A stretch of 35,306 nucleotides of DNA from contig JAKPPT010000064.1 of NCBI GenBank assembly GCA_029547205.1, forward strand, positions 1-35,306, in the 5' to 3' direction. Both the position numbers and the translations under genes were made by a program. This stretch comes from Spirochaetota bacterium (GTDB lineage Bacteria > Spirochaetota > Spirochaetia > Treponematales > UBA12059). This document shows positions 2,808 to 31,599 of the stretch, one piece after another. The notes under the pieces are model-generated. The model was not told the origin of the DNA, did not search any database, and saw only the letters and a program-made list of their open reading frames with translations. Position 1 is the stretch's first letter; each line of letters begins with the position of its first letter.

Positions 2808-3970
2808 TTTTGTAAATAACTCCTAGTTGTAGCAAAAGAATATGCAAATAAAATCCATAAAAATCGCCAATGCAATGTATCTACAAAATAAGAATTTACA
2901 TACATACCAAATAATATTGCTAGTAATAAAATATCTTTTTCTTTATAAGATTTATACAAAGGAAGTAAAAAAATAATTAAAGTAATTATTCCAAACAGTA
3001 AACCCCGTTCACCCAATATTCTATAAAATGTATTGTGTGCTGCTATATTGCTAAAACTCATATAATTTCCAGTTCCAATACCTATAATTGGTGAACGTGT
3101 TATCATTTTTAGAACATTATGGTGACTTTCAAATCTTTCTGTATCATATTGTTGAAGCCCAATACGTGATGTTAATAGCTCAATAATATTTGAATATTTG
3201 GTTTTAGCAAAGTTAAATCCAAAAATAAACAGTGGGATACATAACATTAATCCTAAAGTAAATAATTTAAATTTATTTTTGAATGATGATTTTTTAAATA
3301 AAAATAATAGTGAGAGAGCGACAAAAGCATTTAACCAAGCCGCTCTGGACATACTTAATATGACTCCAATAAAAAAGAAACTGAATAAAAGAATATCTTT
3401 TAGTTTAATTTTTATGAGAATTTTATCAAAAAAATACAATGCAGGGACAAGCAGAAATGGACCGCAAACATTTGGATCTTTAAAAAAACCAGTAAGCCTC
3501 CAACCAAATCTTATTACGTCTGTGCCTAAAAACGTTTTAGTATGTAGTAACAACGCTATAAAATATATTACAATATTGATACCTGCTGCATATATCCATG
3601 GCTTTATAATATCATCAAATTCAATATTACATTTCTGGAAAATATCTAACTCAAATAAAAACATTACCCATAAGTATATATCTATAATGAAAAACCTTAT
3701 ATTTGTGTTTGAAAAAACTATATTACTAAATAAGTATGGTATAATTGAAGTGGTTAATAGCAAAAACAAAACTACTATATGAAATATATTGTAATTTTTT
3801 TTATAATCTATAAAATATGAAATCAGTAATATAATAAATATATAATCGGCAATTGCTGGTTCAAAAAATACAAAACCATTAAAAAAAATATATAATTGTA
3901 GTAAAGCAAACCTGATTGTTTTAATTTTTAATATATCAATTCTTAAACTGTTTGTATTACTAAAATTCAT
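2804..3970 (-). CDS. O-antigen polymerase / ligase-like membrane protein (Wzy/WaaL fold)
   Basis: The 388-residue protein is almost entirely hydrophobic, with about ten predicted membrane segments. A longer periplasmic loop near residues 255-320 contains RFESHHNVLKMITRSPIIGIGTGN and AAHNTF (in that order). The pattern SHH..........P.iGiGxGn followed by HN is that of the Wzy_C / O-antigen ligase family. SMSRAAWLNAF earlier is the matching SRxxWl motif. Such proteins polymerise O-units or ligate the chain to lipid in the periplasmic leaflet. With a Wzx flippase in the same operon, a Wzy role is most likely, but sequence alone does not separate polymerase from ligase. It ends in a four-base ATGA overlap with the next gene. 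The start at 3970 has only a weak GAG-type ribosome site, and the gene is AT-rich. Confidence 0.8.
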   Translation of the reverse strand: MNFSNTNSLRIDILKIKTIRFALLQLYIFFNGFVFFEPAIADYIFIILLISYFIDYKKNYNIFHIVVLFLLLTTSIIPYLFSNIVFSNTNIRFFIIDIYLWVMFLFELDIFQKCNIEFDDIIKPWIYAAGINIVIYFIALLLHTKTFLGTDVIRFGWRLTGFFKDPNVCGPFLLVPALYFFDKILIKIKLKDILLFSFFFIGVILSMSRAAWLNAFVALSLLFLFKKSSFKNKFKLFTLGLMLCIPLFIFGFNFAKTKYSNIIELLTSRIGLQQYDTERFESHHNVLKMITRSPIIGIGTGNYMSFSNIAAHNTFYRILGERGLLFGIITLIIFLLPLYKSYKEKDILLLAILFGMYVNSYFVDTLHWRFLWILFAYSFATTRSYLQK

Positions 3971-3994: not shown

Positions 3995-5314
3995 TCACAG
4001 CTTAAACACTTTTCCATCTTCAATATGTACCTGTTTTACCGCATTGCGGGTGTCTACCACAAGCTGGGCTTTTTCTACAATATGGTCAACATCGAAACAG
4101 GAATGGTTGGTTGTAAAGACAACACAATCGGCACTGCTAATTATTTCATCAGTGAGTTGTACCCCTTTCCAGAGATGTCCATGTTCATCAATTACTTCTG
4201 GTATGTAGGGGTCATGATACATGACATGGGCGCCTTTCTTTGCAACATGTTCCATTACAAGCAGGGCGGGGCTTTCACGGGCATCATCGATATCGGGTTT
4301 ATAGGCAACCCCTAAAAACAAAACTGTGGAACCGTTCAAGGGCTTTTTATGTCGATTAAGCGCATAGGCAATTTTGTTCATCATACGGTAAGGCATGAGA
4401 TTGTTTATATTACCAGCGGTATTTATCATAGTGAGATCAAAATTAAAGCCCTTGGCAATATATTCAAGATAAAAGGGATCAAGTGGTATGCAATGGCCGC
4501 CGATTCCCGGTCCTGGATAAAAGGCCTGAAAACCATAGGGTTTACTTTTTGCAGCTTCTATAACTTCCCAAATATTAATATCCATTTTTCCTGCAAGCAG
4601 TGCAATTTCATTTATCAGCGAAATATTTACTAGTCGATAGGTGTTTTCGAGGATCTTCACCATCTCTGCTGCTCGGGGAGAACTTACGGGATATAAATGT
4701 TGTATTGCCTTACCATACAAGGCGAGGGCAATTTTTTGTGCCTCTTCGCCAAGGCCGCCAACTACCTTAGGTGTGTTTTCTGTTTTATAGTTTTTATTTC
4801 CTGGGTCTACCCGTTCTGGACTAAAGCAGAGCCAGAAATCTTCCCCTTCCTTCATCCCCGACTCGCGCTCAATAATGGGCTTCATAAAATCTTCGGTAGT
4901 TGTCGGATAGGTTGTACTTTCCAGGCTGATAAAGGTGCCTTTTTTCATATTTCTACCAATATCGACACAGGCACCTTCGATATAACTCATGTCAGGCTTT
5001 TTAAATTTGTCCAAAGGTGTTGGTACGCAGATAATGACTGCATCGCATTCGCCAATACGGGTAAAATCAGTCGTTGCAGACAATAGTTTTTCATGTACTA
5101 CTTTGGTAAGTTCATCATCTTCTATATCACCAATATAGTTACGACCTTCATTAACCGATTGTGCTTTTTTCTCACTCTTTTCAAAGCCAAGCACAGAAAT
5201 TCCTTTCCTGGCAAAGGTAACTGCCAAAGGCAGGCCTACATAGCCAAGACCGATAATGCCTACTGTTACGGTGTTTTTTTCAATTTTTTCTAGCAGTTCT
5301 TTATATAAGCTCAT
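3995..5314 (-). CDS. wbpA: UDP-N-acetyl-D-glucosamine 6-dehydrogenase
   Basis: This 439-residue enzyme of the UDP-sugar dehydrogenase family has the NAD loop GLGYVGLP at about residues 23-29. The catalytic Cys is in [13 protein letters not shown] (C275), and [18 protein letters not shown] marks the C-terminal UDP-binding domain. WbpA/WbpO-type members oxidise C6 of UDP-GlcNAc to UDP-GlcNAcA with two NAD+. Close relatives acting on UDP-glucose or UDP-ManNAc cannot be excluded by motif alone. The presence of wbpB, wbpE, wbpD and wbpI just upstream makes UDP-GlcNAc the likely substrate. The start has a GAGGAA ribosome site and overlaps the end of wbpD by four bases (ATGA). This is the first step of the diacetamido-mannuronate pathway. 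Confidence 0.88.
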
Positions 5315-28229: not shown

Positions 28230-28694
28230 CTAGATAAGATCGGCAAATACAGCGCCCACGAGACCTGCAAGTTGTGCCGGTGCAAGGAGTACCTGTACTC
28301 CTCGCTTACCGGCACTCACCGATAGAGTATCCCACACGAGCGCTGTTTCATCGATATACGTTGAGAGTTGCTTCTTCATTCCAATAGGCGAACAGCCTCC
28401 CCGCACATATCCTGTCACCGGTTCTAGTTCTTTGAGTGGCAGCATTGCAATAGATTTTTGTCCAGCAGTTTTTGCAGCTTTTTTAAGATTAAGCTCACAT
28501 GAACCTGGAATAACAAACACGATATGAGTTCCATCGCCACCCAGGGCAACCAGTGTCTTAAAAACACGATCCAGTTCCAGACCAATCTTCTGTGCAACAT
28601 ACTGTGCCGAAAGGTCATCTTCATCGACAGGATACGTTAACACATCATGCGGAATCCGCTTCTGAGCAAGCAAACGGGTAACATTGGTTTCCAT
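28230..28694 (-). CDS. ybaK: Cys-tRNA(Pro) deacylase, YbaK/EbsC family
   Basis: The 154-residue single-domain protein is of the YbaK/ProX editing family, with the catalytic Lys46 in RVFKTLVA and the Gly-rich GGCSPIGMKK segment. The C-terminal stretch RGVQVLLAPAQL completes the fold. It hydrolyses Cys-tRNA(Pro) formed by prolyl-tRNA synthetase and so corrects mischarging in the cytoplasm. The length matches E. coli YbaK. The gene is convergent with lpdA, five bases from its stop, and divergent from the sigma-54 activator. No ribosome site is visible before the ATG at 28692-28694. Confidence 0.9.
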   Translation of the reverse strand: METNVTRLLAQKRIPHDVLTYPVDEDDLSAQYVAQKIGLELDRVFKTLVALGGDGTHIVFVIPGSCELNLKKAAKTAGQKSIAMLPLKELEPVTGYVRGGCSPIGMKKQLSTYIDETALVWDTLSVSAGKRGVQVLLAPAQLAGLVGAVFADLI

Positions 28695-28794: not shown

Positions 28795-28823
28795 TTGAAA
28801 ATAAAAAAATGTAAAATTATACT
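28795..28823 (+). promoter_or_regulatory. Sigma-70-type promoter of the RtcR-like gene
   Basis: TTGAAA (28795-28800), exactly 17 bp, and TATACT (28818-28823). The start would be near 28830, with a 43-base leader and AAGGAA before the ATG. The -10 is embedded in the dyad ATGTAAA / TTTACAT (28809-28829), a possible operator. Confidence 0.6.
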
Positions 28824-28829
28824 TTACAT
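28809..28829. promoter_or_regulatory. Dyad overlapping the RtcR-like gene's -10 box
   Basis: ATGTAAA at 28809-28815 and TTTACAT at 28823-28829 are seven-base inverted arms around a 7-bp AT centre that contains most of the -10. A further TGTAAAGAT half-site lies in the leader at 28842-28850. The placement fits repression or autoregulation by a dimeric factor, but the AT-rich context makes chance occurrence possible. Confidence 0.4.
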
Positions 28830-28872
28830 GAGCTAATGTTTTGTAAAGATACCAATTTTTAAGGAAAATCAC

Positions 28873-30342
28873 ATGCGACAAACCGCTGTTTCATTTTTAG
28901 AGAATGTAGCAGAAATTTCTAAAATAAATTATTTTTTGCACGATCTATACAAAAATCTCAATGAGAAGCTTGATTCACTTATTTTATACGTCGATAGCGA
29001 AATTGCCATTGAACCTGACTCTATCAATTTAGAAAGCAAATGGATTCAACAAACAAGACCAATAATACGCTATTATGAACATTCTACTACGCACAGAGCA
29101 ACATGGGAAATACTGGAAAAAACGTTAATTAAGCATGTGCAAACAGAGCGAGATTCCGTAATACACATTAATTCAATGTGCAAATCACATGTATTGCATT
29201 CAATGTTAATTCTTTCATATTATCTTGGATTTATACCAAAACCATCTACTATCTGGACTGGCTTAGAATCTACAGAAGGCATACGTTTTTTTCCAGTAAG
29301 CTTACCAATTAAGATTTCATTTACTTCCTATGCTTCAGATCATGTAGAAACTAATTTCAAAGCTCTATATAACAAAAATGTTCTCGAAAGTCCCAATCTC
29401 ATAGAAGCGCTTGATATTATTAATGCATGCTGCCAAATACCCGAAAGCAACCTACTTATTCTCGGAGAAAAAGGTACAGGTAAAAGCAGAATAGTTGAAG
29501 AACAAATTGGTCATATAAAAAACAAGATAGTTACCACTATCGTATGTGGATCATTGAACCGCGAACTAGCAATGAGCCAGTTATTCGGATACGAAAAAGG
29601 AGCATATACTGGTGCTATCAAGAGTCAAGCAGGTTTAGTACAAGAAGCAGAAAATGGAATATTATTTTTTGATGAAGTTCAAGATTTGCCAAAAGAAGTG
29701 CAAAGAATGCTCGTCAGATTTTTACAGGACAAAGAGCACCGCTACAGACCGGTAGGTTCAACAAAGGAATTTTGCTCAAATACAGAACTGATATTTGCAT
29801 CACATTTATCATTAGAAGCTCTACGAGAAACTATTGACGATGATCTCTTTGACCGGATTAGCCTTGTAACCGTTGAAATTCCACCATTGCGATCAATTAG
29901 AGCTGATATTCCAACAATTTGGAAAAGTGTCTGGAAAGAACATAACGTTATACTTGAATTCCCTGATGCACCTAATAATGATTTGCTTCAGGATTATTTT
30001 TCTACAGATATGCTTGAAGGTAACTTACGTACGCTTGTAGCATTATGTAAAATGATCAACATTTTTTATATTCAGACAAAAGATATAGAAAAATCATGCG
30101 AACTTGCTATTTATTCACAAAAAAATAAGAAATATTCAAATTCGAAAGATAGCGTAGATTCATCATGCAATACACATTATGTTATTGATTTTTCTAAAGA
30201 TCTAAAAACTATGACACAAGATTTTAAGAGAACTATTATTACCAGACTCTACCAACAGGCATATACAAACCAGCAGATAGCAAAGATTCTTCAAATTGAT
30301 GAAAAGACCGTTAGGAACATACTATCAGGAAATTTTTCCTGA
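28873..30342 (+). CDS. RtcR-like sigma-54 transcriptional activator with a CARF-like N-terminal domain
   Basis: The protein has 489 residues. The central AAA+ domain has Walker A GEKGTGKS (198-205), the sigma-54 loop GAYTGA (243-248), Walker B ILFFDE (263-268), an arginine finger near 328 and EGNLRTL (382-388) in sensor II. A C-terminal helix-turn-helix (about 465-486, QQIAKILQIDEKTVRNIL) would bind enhancer DNA. Residues 35-155 resemble the CARF sensor of RtcR, which in E. coli responds to RNA ends. In particular, TERDSVIHINSMCKSHVLHS aligns by eye with the RtcR HITTGTHxxQ segment, although the TGTH core is altered. Activators of this kind switch on operons by ATP-driven opening of sigma-54 promoters, and one lies directly downstream. 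Gene order matches RtcR systems, but rtcA and rtcB are absent. Confidence 0.85.
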   Translation: MRQTAVSFLENVAEISKINYFLHDLYKNLNEKLDSLILYVDSEIAIEPDSINLESKWIQQTRPIIRYYEHSTTHRATWEILEKTLIKHVQTERDSVIHINSMCKSHVLHSMLILSYYLGFIPKPSTIWTGLESTEGIRFFPVSLPIKISFTSYASDHVETNFKALYNKNVLESPNLIEALDIINACCQIPESNLLILGEKGTGKSRIVEEQIGHIKNKIVTTIVCGSLNRELAMSQLFGYEKGAYTGAIKSQAGLVQEAENGILFFDEVQDLPKEVQRMLVRFLQDKEHRYRPVGSTKEFCSNTELIFASHLSLEALRETIDDDLFDRISLVTVEIPPLRSIRADIPTIWKSVWKEHNVILEFPDAPNNDLLQDYFSTDMLEGNLRTLVALCKMINIFYIQTKDIEKSCELAIYSQKNKKYSNSKDSVDSSCNTHYVIDFSKDLKTMTQDFKRTIITRLYQQAYTNQQIAKILQIDEKTVRNILSGNFS

Positions 30343-30363
30343 TTTTAGGATTTTTTTCCTGAA
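30324..30363. promoter_or_regulatory. Paired dyads, candidate enhancer sites
   Basis: ATCAGGAAATTTTTCCTGAT (30324-30343) is a perfect dyad with 9-bp arms. TTAGGATTTTTTTCCTGAA (30345-30363) is a second, imperfect copy. Their centres are 20 bp apart, two helical turns, and about 112-130 bp upstream of the -24 element. This is a usual position for activator binding. The first overlaps the stop codon of the activator gene. The dyad could also act as a weak terminator. Confidence 0.5.
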
Positions 30364-30462
30364 TCTCTTATATTACTCCATACTAACTTGCGATTAATTT
30401 CATCAAATAGCACCAAATGTATTACTATGCAAATAAAATTATATGTTTTTTTCGTGTATAGT

Positions 30463-30480
30463 TTGGCATGTTTTTTGCTA
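30463..30480 (+). promoter_or_regulatory. Sigma-54 (-24/-12) promoter
   Basis: TTGGCATGTTTTTTGCTA matches the sigma-54 consensus TTGGCACG-N4-TTGCA at nearly every position. GG (30465-30466) and GC (30477-30478) have the required 12-bp offset. Transcription would start near 30491, just before the GAAAGGAGGTGA ribosome site of the next gene. It lies directly downstream of a sigma-54 activator gene. Confidence 0.88.
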
Positions 30481-30506
30481 CATAGCTTATAGAAAGGAGG
30501 TGAGTT

Positions 30507-31244
30507 ATGAGTTTATCAAATATCAATCTTAAAGTAGTAAAGATGGTTGGTAGCAAAATACTCATTGTTATTGAGTTGCAAAACTCTCAAACTCTGTGGG
30601 GAAAACCAATTACCATCAATTACTCCAACATGTATTTGCATATTTCATCAACCTTAAAAGACATAGGACATTCAAAAGTTCCGGAATTTTACTATGACGT
30701 ACAATATTTGGCATTTCCTAAAATATTGGAATTTGTCAATGGGAATATCGGCTTTGGCTATTGGCTAGATAAGACCAATACATTTATTGATTCCGGTACT
30801 TTTGAAGTAACAATTCCTACAAGTGCTTCAATTTCCTACGATGAATTTATCAGAGAGAAAATTGAACAACCACAAGAAAACACTAGAAATAACAAGGAGG
30901 ATACTATGAACAATAACGATTATATTAAAGGAAGAACTTTTGATGTGTTTCCCGAAGAAACCGATAGAAGATTTCTTTTCGACTACTATCTCTTTGACAT
31001 TGACACTGACGAAATTATAGAGCATGGCGCGATTATCGCATCAGGAAGTACTATAGATGAGGCAACAAAAGATGTAATATCAAAAATGCAGAAAAAGGTA
31101 GGCAATAAGATTTCAGAGCATATTAAAGTTCATTTGAATTACATAAATAATTTTAAAAAGCCACAAAAAGAAGACAGTACGCTTGAAAAATTATCTCAAG
31201 GCATAGCTCGTATGCTAAATGAAGCACTTAATAGCAATAAATAA
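30507..31244 (+). CDS. Unrecognised protein, first gene of the sigma-54 operon
   Basis: This 245-residue protein belongs to no family I recognise. Residues 1-115 look beta-rich and soluble (for example KILIVIELQNSQTLW and GTFEVTIPTSASIS). A polar linker at 116-135 (QENTRNNKED) follows, then a second mixed domain that includes RRFLFDYYLFDIDTDEIIEHG and a helical C-terminus. There is no signal peptide, membrane segment or Cys cluster. The ribosome site GAAAGGAGGTGA is close to perfect, so high expression is expected when the promoter fires. An internal, equally strong start at 30906 may yield the second domain alone. Its stop lies on the ribosome site of the Smr gene, so the genes are coupled. 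Confidence 0.75.
   Translation: MSLSNINLKVVKMVGSKILIVIELQNSQTLWGKPITINYSNMYLHISSTLKDIGHSKVPEFYYDVQYLAFPKILEFVNGNIGFGYWLDKTNTFIDSGTFEVTIPTSASISYDEFIREKIEQPQENTRNNKEDTMNNNDYIKGRTFDVFPEETDRRFLFDYYLFDIDTDEIIEHGAIIASGSTIDEATKDVISKMQKKVGNKISEHIKVHLNYINNFKKPQKEDSTLEKLSQGIARMLNEALNSNK
30906..31244 (+). CDS. Nested in-frame product of the sigma-54 operon
   Basis: AAGGAGG at 30894-30900 lies five bases before an ATG at 30906, inside and in frame with the 245-residue gene. Initiation there would give a 112-residue protein beginning MNNNDYIKGRTFDVF, the whole second domain. The site falls exactly in the polar linker between the two domains. The likely explanations are a fusion of two formerly separate genes through loss of a stop codon, or deliberate production of two isoforms. 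The domain is unrecognised. Confidence 0.55.
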   Translation: MNNNDYIKGRTFDVFPEETDRRFLFDYYLFDIDTDEIIEHGAIIASGSTIDEATKDVISKMQKKVGNKISEHIKVHLNYINNFKKPQKEDSTLEKLSQGIARMLNEALNSNK

Positions 31245-31257
31245 GGAGACTAAAACT

Positions 31258-31545
31258 ATGAAAGAACTCTGGGATTCTTTGGAAATTGATTTACATAAAA
31301 AGAATCTTAATGAGGCAATGCAAATTGTAGAAAAAAGCATTGAAAACTTTAAATTACAGAGCAAATCACTTGTTTTCATTACTGGTAAAGGTCTTCATTC
31401 AAGGAATAAGCAACCAGTTATCAAGCCTGAACTTGAAGGCTACCTAAAACGAAATGGATTCTGGTGGTCACACCCAAAAACTCCAAGCGGGCTTACAAAT
31501 ACTGGCCGCTACACTATAAAAACTTTTGCAGAGTATTTAGACTAA
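31258..31545 (+). CDS. Stand-alone Smr-domain protein
   Basis: The 95-residue protein is essentially only a Smr (small MutS-related) domain. IDLHKKNLNEAM holds the DxH motif (Asp11, His13). FITGKGLHSRN holds the GKG loop (43-45) and the GLHS extension found in MutS2-type Smr domains. Smr domains in SmrB and MutS2 act on nucleic acid, including mRNA cleavage at stalled or collided ribosomes. The usual Gly after DLH is Lys here, so activity is plausible but not certain. The ATG at 31258 has AAGGAGA eight bases upstream; an earlier in-frame ATG at 31219 lies inside the previous gene. It is the last gene of the sigma-54 operon. Confidence 0.82.
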   Translation: MKELWDSLEIDLHKKNLNEAMQIVEKSIENFKLQSKSLVFITGKGLHSRNKQPVIKPELEGYLKRNGFWWSHPKTPSGLTNTGRYTIKTFAEYLD

Positions 31546-31570
31546 TTTTGAAAATTCGTATAATAGTAAA

Positions 31571-31596
31571 AAATGGCTGCCTTTTGGCAGCCATTT
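31571..31596. terminator. Bidirectional rho-independent terminator
   Basis: AAATGGCTGCC (31571-31581) and GGCAGCCATTT (31586-31596) form an 11-bp stem with a TTTT loop. It is flanked by an A run on the left and a T run on the right, so it can end transcription from both sides. It lies between the convergent stops of the Smr gene and the large surface protein gene. Confidence 0.93.
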
Positions 31597-31599
31597 TTA

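Follow-up and report, generated by a model that had tools for sequence, protein, structure and literature searches.

Three plus-strand genes and a terminator at positions 28873-31598 of the window, the 35,306-nt stretch of Spirochaetota DNA analyzed here (contig JAKPPT010000064.1), form a compact cassette in which a sigma-54 activator with a CARF domain precedes a two-domain protein of no known family, hereafter the orphan protein, and a stand-alone Smr-domain protein. The reading that we favor, with a probability of roughly 0.55, is that this cassette is a self-contained, horizontally acquired operon which is induced by a signal and responds to RNA damage or to phage. We predict its regulatory anatomy with high confidence, and our assignment of a purpose to the operon is tentative. 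What we infer is the signal, RNA as the substrate, what the orphan protein does and the connection to defense or RNA damage.

A sequence-only reading of the window had described a CARF-like sigma-54 activator with its own promoter, followed by enhancer-like dyads, a consensus sigma-54 promoter, an unknown two-domain protein, an Smr-domain protein and a terminator. Apart from the activator's own promoter, all of these features were recovered in our analysis, and the check set beforehand, that the three genes should be found together elsewhere, was borne out by one independent locus. This second locus (L041; record JAAYUR010000285.1) lies in a metagenome-assembled genome (MAG) labeled 'Treponema sp.' (G017), from the same bacterial family as the window's own genome (G000, 2.65 Mb) and a different genus. 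It has the same gene order, with identities to the window of 39% for the activator, 52% for the orphan protein and 41% for the Smr protein. Since this independent copy carries the same control signals, the arrangement of the cassette is real at the sequence level.

These control signals lie around the end of the activator gene. An exact sigma-54 (-24/-12) promoter, TTGGCATGTTTTTTGCT (30463-30479), ends 27 bases before the ATG of the orphan gene, in a window where about 0.12 matches with at most one mismatch are expected after shuffling. The exact pattern occurs at four sites in each of the two genomes (reversed-pattern control, 0), and each genome has one of these directly ahead of the orphan gene; the counterpart in the second locus is TTGGCACGCCGCTTGCT at 3948-3964. 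Two dyads sharing the form GGA-N6-TCC are found approximately 100-140 bp before the promoter. The first, ATCAGGAAATTTTTCCTGAT, is a perfect 20-nt palindrome (30324-30343; core AGGA-N6-TCCT at 30327-30340) that overlaps the stop codon of the activator and occurs once in the 2.65-Mb genome, and the second, AGGATTTTTTTCCT (30347-30360), follows 20 nt past the first. Only 0.0017 such dyads are expected in the region by shuffling. As the pattern was defined on the window, the second locus is an independent test of it, and two dyads of the same form are present there (3821-3834 and 3852-3865, the latter over the stop codon of that activator; about 0.008 expected by shuffling). RpoN is encoded in the window's genome, so that the -24/-12 element, the upstream dyads and the cognate sigma factor of a sigma-54 target promoter are all present in sequence. 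Downstream, the cassette is closed by a strong intrinsic terminator with a 13-bp stem and a 4-nt loop (31569-31598).

The activator (489 aa, 28873-30342) was assigned by Pfam (Sigma54_activat PF00158, E=8e-36), NCBIfam and PADLOC, and consists of a CARF domain (approximately aa 1-168), an AAA+ domain (aa 173-345) and a helix-turn-helix domain (approximately aa 450-485). The AAA+ domain has the Walker A motif (GEKGTGK), sigma-54 contact loop (GAYTGA; GAFTGA in the second copy) and Walker B motif (LFFDE) of sigma-54 enhancer-binding proteins. The best full-length match in PADLOC is RtcR_PspF1--CARF_AAA_HTH (E=2.5e-90), with residues 20-483 aligned to profile positions 38-464 of 468. The N-terminal 172 residues of the window activator alone gave no PADLOC match, and the corresponding part of the second activator did (E=4e-4). 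In a profile comparison (hhalign E=1.6e-4), the CARF domain aligns end to end and colinearly with its counterparts in seven further activators from the phylum. An AlphaFold model built from the two sequences reached a predicted local distance difference test score (pLDDT) of 72 and a predicted template modeling score of 0.71. Among its 50 best structure matches, 49 are CARF-type proteins, including Csm6, Cdn1, Card1, Can2, Cad1 and Csa3, and the best has a Z score of 13.8 over 136 residues (root-mean-square deviation 2.7). Because the structure search returns CARF proteins almost exclusively, the label 'CARF-like' is correct, and the modeled fold confirms the N-terminus as a CARF domain.

Judged by its sequence, the activator is not RtcR itself, because it scores 147.9 bits against a cut-off of 650 for the NCBIfam RtcR equivalog and no rtcB was found in a search of the whole genome; Pfam RtcR (PF06956) does not match it either. 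The sequence-only reading had stressed a module without RtcA and RtcB. Neither gene adjoins the activator and RtcB is absent genome-wide, while RtcA was sought only at the locus. The same reading had called the module RtcR-like and undescribed, and here the two halves part: RtcR relatives unlinked to Rtc genes are already known from the vicinity of restriction-modification systems (PMC4012209) and ahead of CoCoNuT defense superoperons (PMC11090510), and for the output genes we found no description in the literature searched.

Outside the spirochaetes, the closest relatives of the activator are of the plasmid RtcR_PspF1 type (about 33% identity over 86%, E 1e-62). In the tree, the two cassette activators are sister to those on plasmids of Klebsiella, Vibrio and Pontibrevibacter (98/99 support for the clade that unites them), on a separate branch from E. 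coli RtcR, whose own placement is unsure due to its long branch. At the plasmid loci, the genes for a DrmC/MkoB-like PLD protein and for a protein of unknown type come before the activator, and in the plasmids of Vibrio and Pontibrevibacter an MkoA-like helicase gene stands ahead of both. A search of these loci for an exact sigma-54 site found none. The Pontibrevibacter activator (L065, 8731-10149) lacks the GAFTGA loop and may consequently no longer act through sigma-54. No activator relatives were detected in viral contigs, and neither partner gene was seen within the flank of about 1.5 kb examined around other CARF activators of the phylum (L012-L018).

The Smr protein (95 aa, 31258-31545; PF01713, E=1e-7) is read from the ATG at 31258, which has an AAGGAG site, as the listed reading-frame start at 31219 would overlap the upstream gene. 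It has the motifs IDLH and TGKG (VDLH and TGRG in the second copy), and its best solved relative by search is N4BP2. A DxH motif marks the catalytically active Smr nucleases SmrB and Cue2, which cut mRNA at collided ribosomes (PMC10897456), and family-2 Smr domains, which are usually eukaryotic, are distinguished by TGxG combined with an LDxH-like motif (PMC3200294). Both family-2 motifs are present, and the protein is predicted to be an endonuclease of the N4BP2/Cue2 type, most likely acting on RNA. No relatives were found in plasmids, phages or viral contigs.

The orphan protein (245 aa, 30507-31244) matches none of the families in Pfam, NCBIfam, PADLOC or PHROGs. Its only homologue is that of the second locus, which was also the one found among 84,980 species genomes (GTDB contigs, pattern-based search). 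No others beyond the two cassette genomes were detected in 59 relatives, 393 genomes of the phylum and 394 of the order (overlapping samples), nor any in plasmids, phages or viral contigs. Remaining weak matches look like chance, and one of them (L042) is antisense to another long reading frame. Searching solved structures by sequence gave no match, and BFVD none that was convincing. Domain 1 (aa 1 to about 121) is beta-rich and is tentatively alpha-crystallin/CS-like, as alpha-crystallin or CS domains make up all of its 17 best structure matches (Z 4.9-6.9), obtained with a weak model (pLDDT 55). Domain 2 (aa 134-245) is predicted to be beta-beta-alpha-beta-alpha; Pfam matches to DUF5395 (E=0.04) and RNase_J_C (E=0.09) were too weak to be believed.

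The orphan gene might give rise to two products. In the poorly conserved linker between the domains, K-E and M are kept, which at DNA level correspond to AAGGAGG...ATG in the window (30894-30908, ATG at 30906), and the second copy has AAGGAG and an ATG (4394) at the same point. The calculated pairing energy with the 16S end is -11.2 kcal/mol in the window and -12.4 kcal/mol in the second copy, where the internal start pairs as strongly as the first ATG of the gene itself; at its other internal ATGs, the window gene reaches -1 to -3 kcal/mol. Because a conserved internal Shine-Dalgarno sequence and ATG coincide with the start of domain 2, the data suggest that this domain is made on its own as well, as a product of 112 aa.

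The cassette occurs in two of the 394 genomes of the order. In the window it has 33% GC between flanks of 43-47%, and the setting of the second copy has 63% GC. This patchy occurrence is most simply explained by horizontal transfer, which is probable and fits a low-GC cassette amid flanks of higher GC content.

In the reading that we favor, the CARF domain would keep the AAA+ motor inactive until a signal arrives. This signal may be a fragment of RNA, produced by damage or during infection, or it may be a partner protein. Such a restraint has been described for RtcR, where the CARF domain holds back the motor (PMC9650030). The freed activator would then bind the dyads and open sigma-54 RNA polymerase at the single promoter, yielding the orphan protein at full length and as domain 2 alone, together with the Smr protein. 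The latter may act as an endonuclease, for instance on mRNA at stalled ribosomes as SmrB and Cue2 do, and the orphan protein may be its partner, targeting subunit or control. The nuclease would thus be raised only upon sensing of RNA damage or phage. The sister clade of the activator gives this reading some support from phylogeny, as its members stand beside genes for MkoA-like helicases and DrmC/MkoB-like PLD proteins. A bolder version, which we rate as decidedly doubtful, is an undescribed form of inducible immunity or RNA surveillance, in which a remodeled CARF pocket with a new ligand or partner would switch on a Cue2-like Smr ribonuclease and a two-form orphan protein, and the cleavage products or the orphan protein would feed back so that the response amplifies itself.

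Several observations weigh against the reading that we favor. The Gly-Thr loop after strand 4 of the CARF domain, which reads SPGTPxM or SPGTPAM in the plasmid PspF1-type relatives and TTGTH in E. coli RtcR, is lost in both copies (SMCKSHVL in the window, AAVENPVL in the second). This loop is typical of the subfamily and is no strict requirement of the CARF fold, but its loss means that sensing of RNA ends in the manner of RtcR is not assured. The activator might still respond to damaged RNA ends, as the sequence-only reading proposed, and the assumption that it shares the ligand of RtcR is weakened. Family-2 Smr domains such as that of N4BP2 can nick DNA too (PMC3200294), so an RNA substrate is likely and not certain. 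In addition, the predicted fold of the orphan protein is of low confidence, the two known loci come from one bacterial family and one of them is a MAG contig, and no other known defense gene was recognized beside the cassette in the window.

This last point would suit a housekeeping system under sigma-54 control that rescues ribosomes or checks RNA quality. Here the activator would respond to what translation stress produces, and cutting of mRNA at collided ribosomes by the Smr protein would serve the cell itself, with no role against phages. Such a system would agree with the DLH motif of SmrB/Cue2-type nucleases, and RtcR itself reacts to the condition of the translation machinery (PMC9650030). 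However, a housekeeping function is at odds with the very patchy occurrence of the cassette and its position in a low-GC island. The activator clade is otherwise found in defense-like plasmid operons, and the window's genome already encodes two further Smr proteins. We consider a housekeeping role somewhat unlikely.

The role of the orphan protein could also be different. Instead of serving the nuclease, it might chiefly regulate the activator in a feedback loop, as RtcA/RtcB do with RtcR or PspA with PspF, and leave Smr as the sole effector. RtcAB bind the CARF domain of RtcR and are required for its activation (PMC9650030), the orphan protein and the divergent CARF domain occur only together, and a gene that yields two products would be in keeping with a binding partner. 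Nevertheless, a small ligand could equally switch the activator and the altered CARF loop is indirect evidence, and we regard this division of roles as unlikely.

A third alternative is that the activator is a remote effector of CRISPR immunity, receiving in trans the cyclic oligoadenylate made by the type III-B system of the genome. An intact-looking type III-B locus is indeed present on contig C63 at approximately 231,000-249,300 (L057, L060), with Cas6, Cmr1-like, Cas10, RAMP, Csx1, Cas1-like and Cas2-like genes and a 22-repeat array, and the CARF model is nearest to oligoadenylate-binding CARF domains. Beside the CRISPR genes, the contig encodes a second CARF sigma-54 activator (RtcR_PspF2, E=1.5e-114), as well as a Cad1-like CARF-adenosine deaminase and a protein of the CARF7_DUF2103 type. 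At another locus of the phylum (L018), a CARF sigma-54 activator likewise adjoins a CARF7 protein. On the other hand, the type III-B locus lies on a different contig from the cassette, the Gly-Thr pocket loop is lost, and RtcR does not respond to oligoadenylates (PMC9650030). A type III signal is possible but not needed, because the genome of the second copy (a MAG, 93% complete) has no Cas10 relative, and we find an effector role of this kind very unlikely.

Finally, it is hardly credible that the cassette is a decayed or passenger defense operon, acquired and non-functional in this lineage, as its low GC content, its patchy occurrence and the replacement of Phe by Tyr in the loop that contacts sigma-54 might hint. 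All three frames are intact, as are the promoter, the two dyads, the internal start and the terminator, and conservation of all of these but the terminator in a copy only 39-52% identical implies selection.

It is known that RNA repair is under the control of RtcR-like CARF switches, and genomic context assigns defense superoperons to such switches as well; their ligands are debated. As in the Rtc system, a CARF-AAA+-HTH sigma-54 activator here stands beside a single -24/-12 target operon with a possible link to RNA. Unlike that system, no RtcA, RtcB or Rsr gene adjoins it, the activator is on the same strand as its target and upstream of it, and the CARF loop TTGTH of E. coli is replaced by SMCKSH. 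In the plasmid RtcR_PspF1 loci, e.g., of Vibrio and Klebsiella, the activator follows the helicase/PLD operon and keeps the SPGTP loop, whereas here it precedes the orphan and Smr genes and the loop is lost. The layout resembles type IV CoCoNuTs in that an RtcR-like activator, proposed there to sense RNA ends with cyclic phosphates, precedes an operon for a predicted RNA-targeting nuclease (PMC11090510), but McrB/McrC, helicase and HEPN genes are missing and the orphan and Smr genes alone stand before the terminator. The Smr protein shares the DLH and GxG motifs with SmrB, Cue2 and N4BP2, and TGxG with N4BP2 (family 2, PMC3200294); it differs in being a stand-alone 95-aa bacterial protein, apparently under a dedicated sigma-54 CARF switch.

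What appears to be new is the target, i.e., the orphan protein and a family-2-like Smr protein; in a literature search that covered mainly open-access papers, we found none that names an Smr domain alongside RtcR or CARF in this sense. The cassette would connect CARF sensing to Smr nucleases by placing a stand-alone Smr protein from a bacterium, of the Cue2/N4BP2 type, under a dedicated inducible switch. With a two-gene target operon, one promoter and one pair of dyads, it is about the simplest system in which to find the ligand of such a switch, and whether one gene makes two proteins can be tested at the conserved internal start.

The activator's own promoter, as proposed by the sequence-only reading, did not stand out: the candidate is a weak sigma-70-like element from a consensus scan (TTGAAA-17-TATACT, 28795-28823), and the region contains 13 sigma-70-like matches where 12.9 are expected by chance. 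The candidate element overlaps an inverted repeat, ATGTAAA/TTTACAT (28809-28829). Further upstream and outside the conserved cassette, the minus strand holds a gene for a YbaK-like aminoacyl-tRNA editing protein (28230-28694). In the second locus, a small Asn-rich ORF (5085-5249) without counterpart in the window follows the Smr gene, and a WYL-domain gene (26-1267) lies upstream of the cassette; WYL and CARF genes frequently co-occur (PMC4012209). Neither locus contains an Rfam RNA, and therefore no known Y-RNA-like gene.

The other three exact sigma-54 sites in the window's genome are found on other contigs. Two of them, C57:73498-73514 (L054) and C69:98550-98566 (L055), precede genes for a small heat-shock protein and a lipoprotein-like product. 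The third, C112:31337-31353 (L056), directly precedes a gene that reads as a sigma-70-family (RpoS-like) factor, an arrangement that recalls the RpoN-RpoS cascade of Borrelia.

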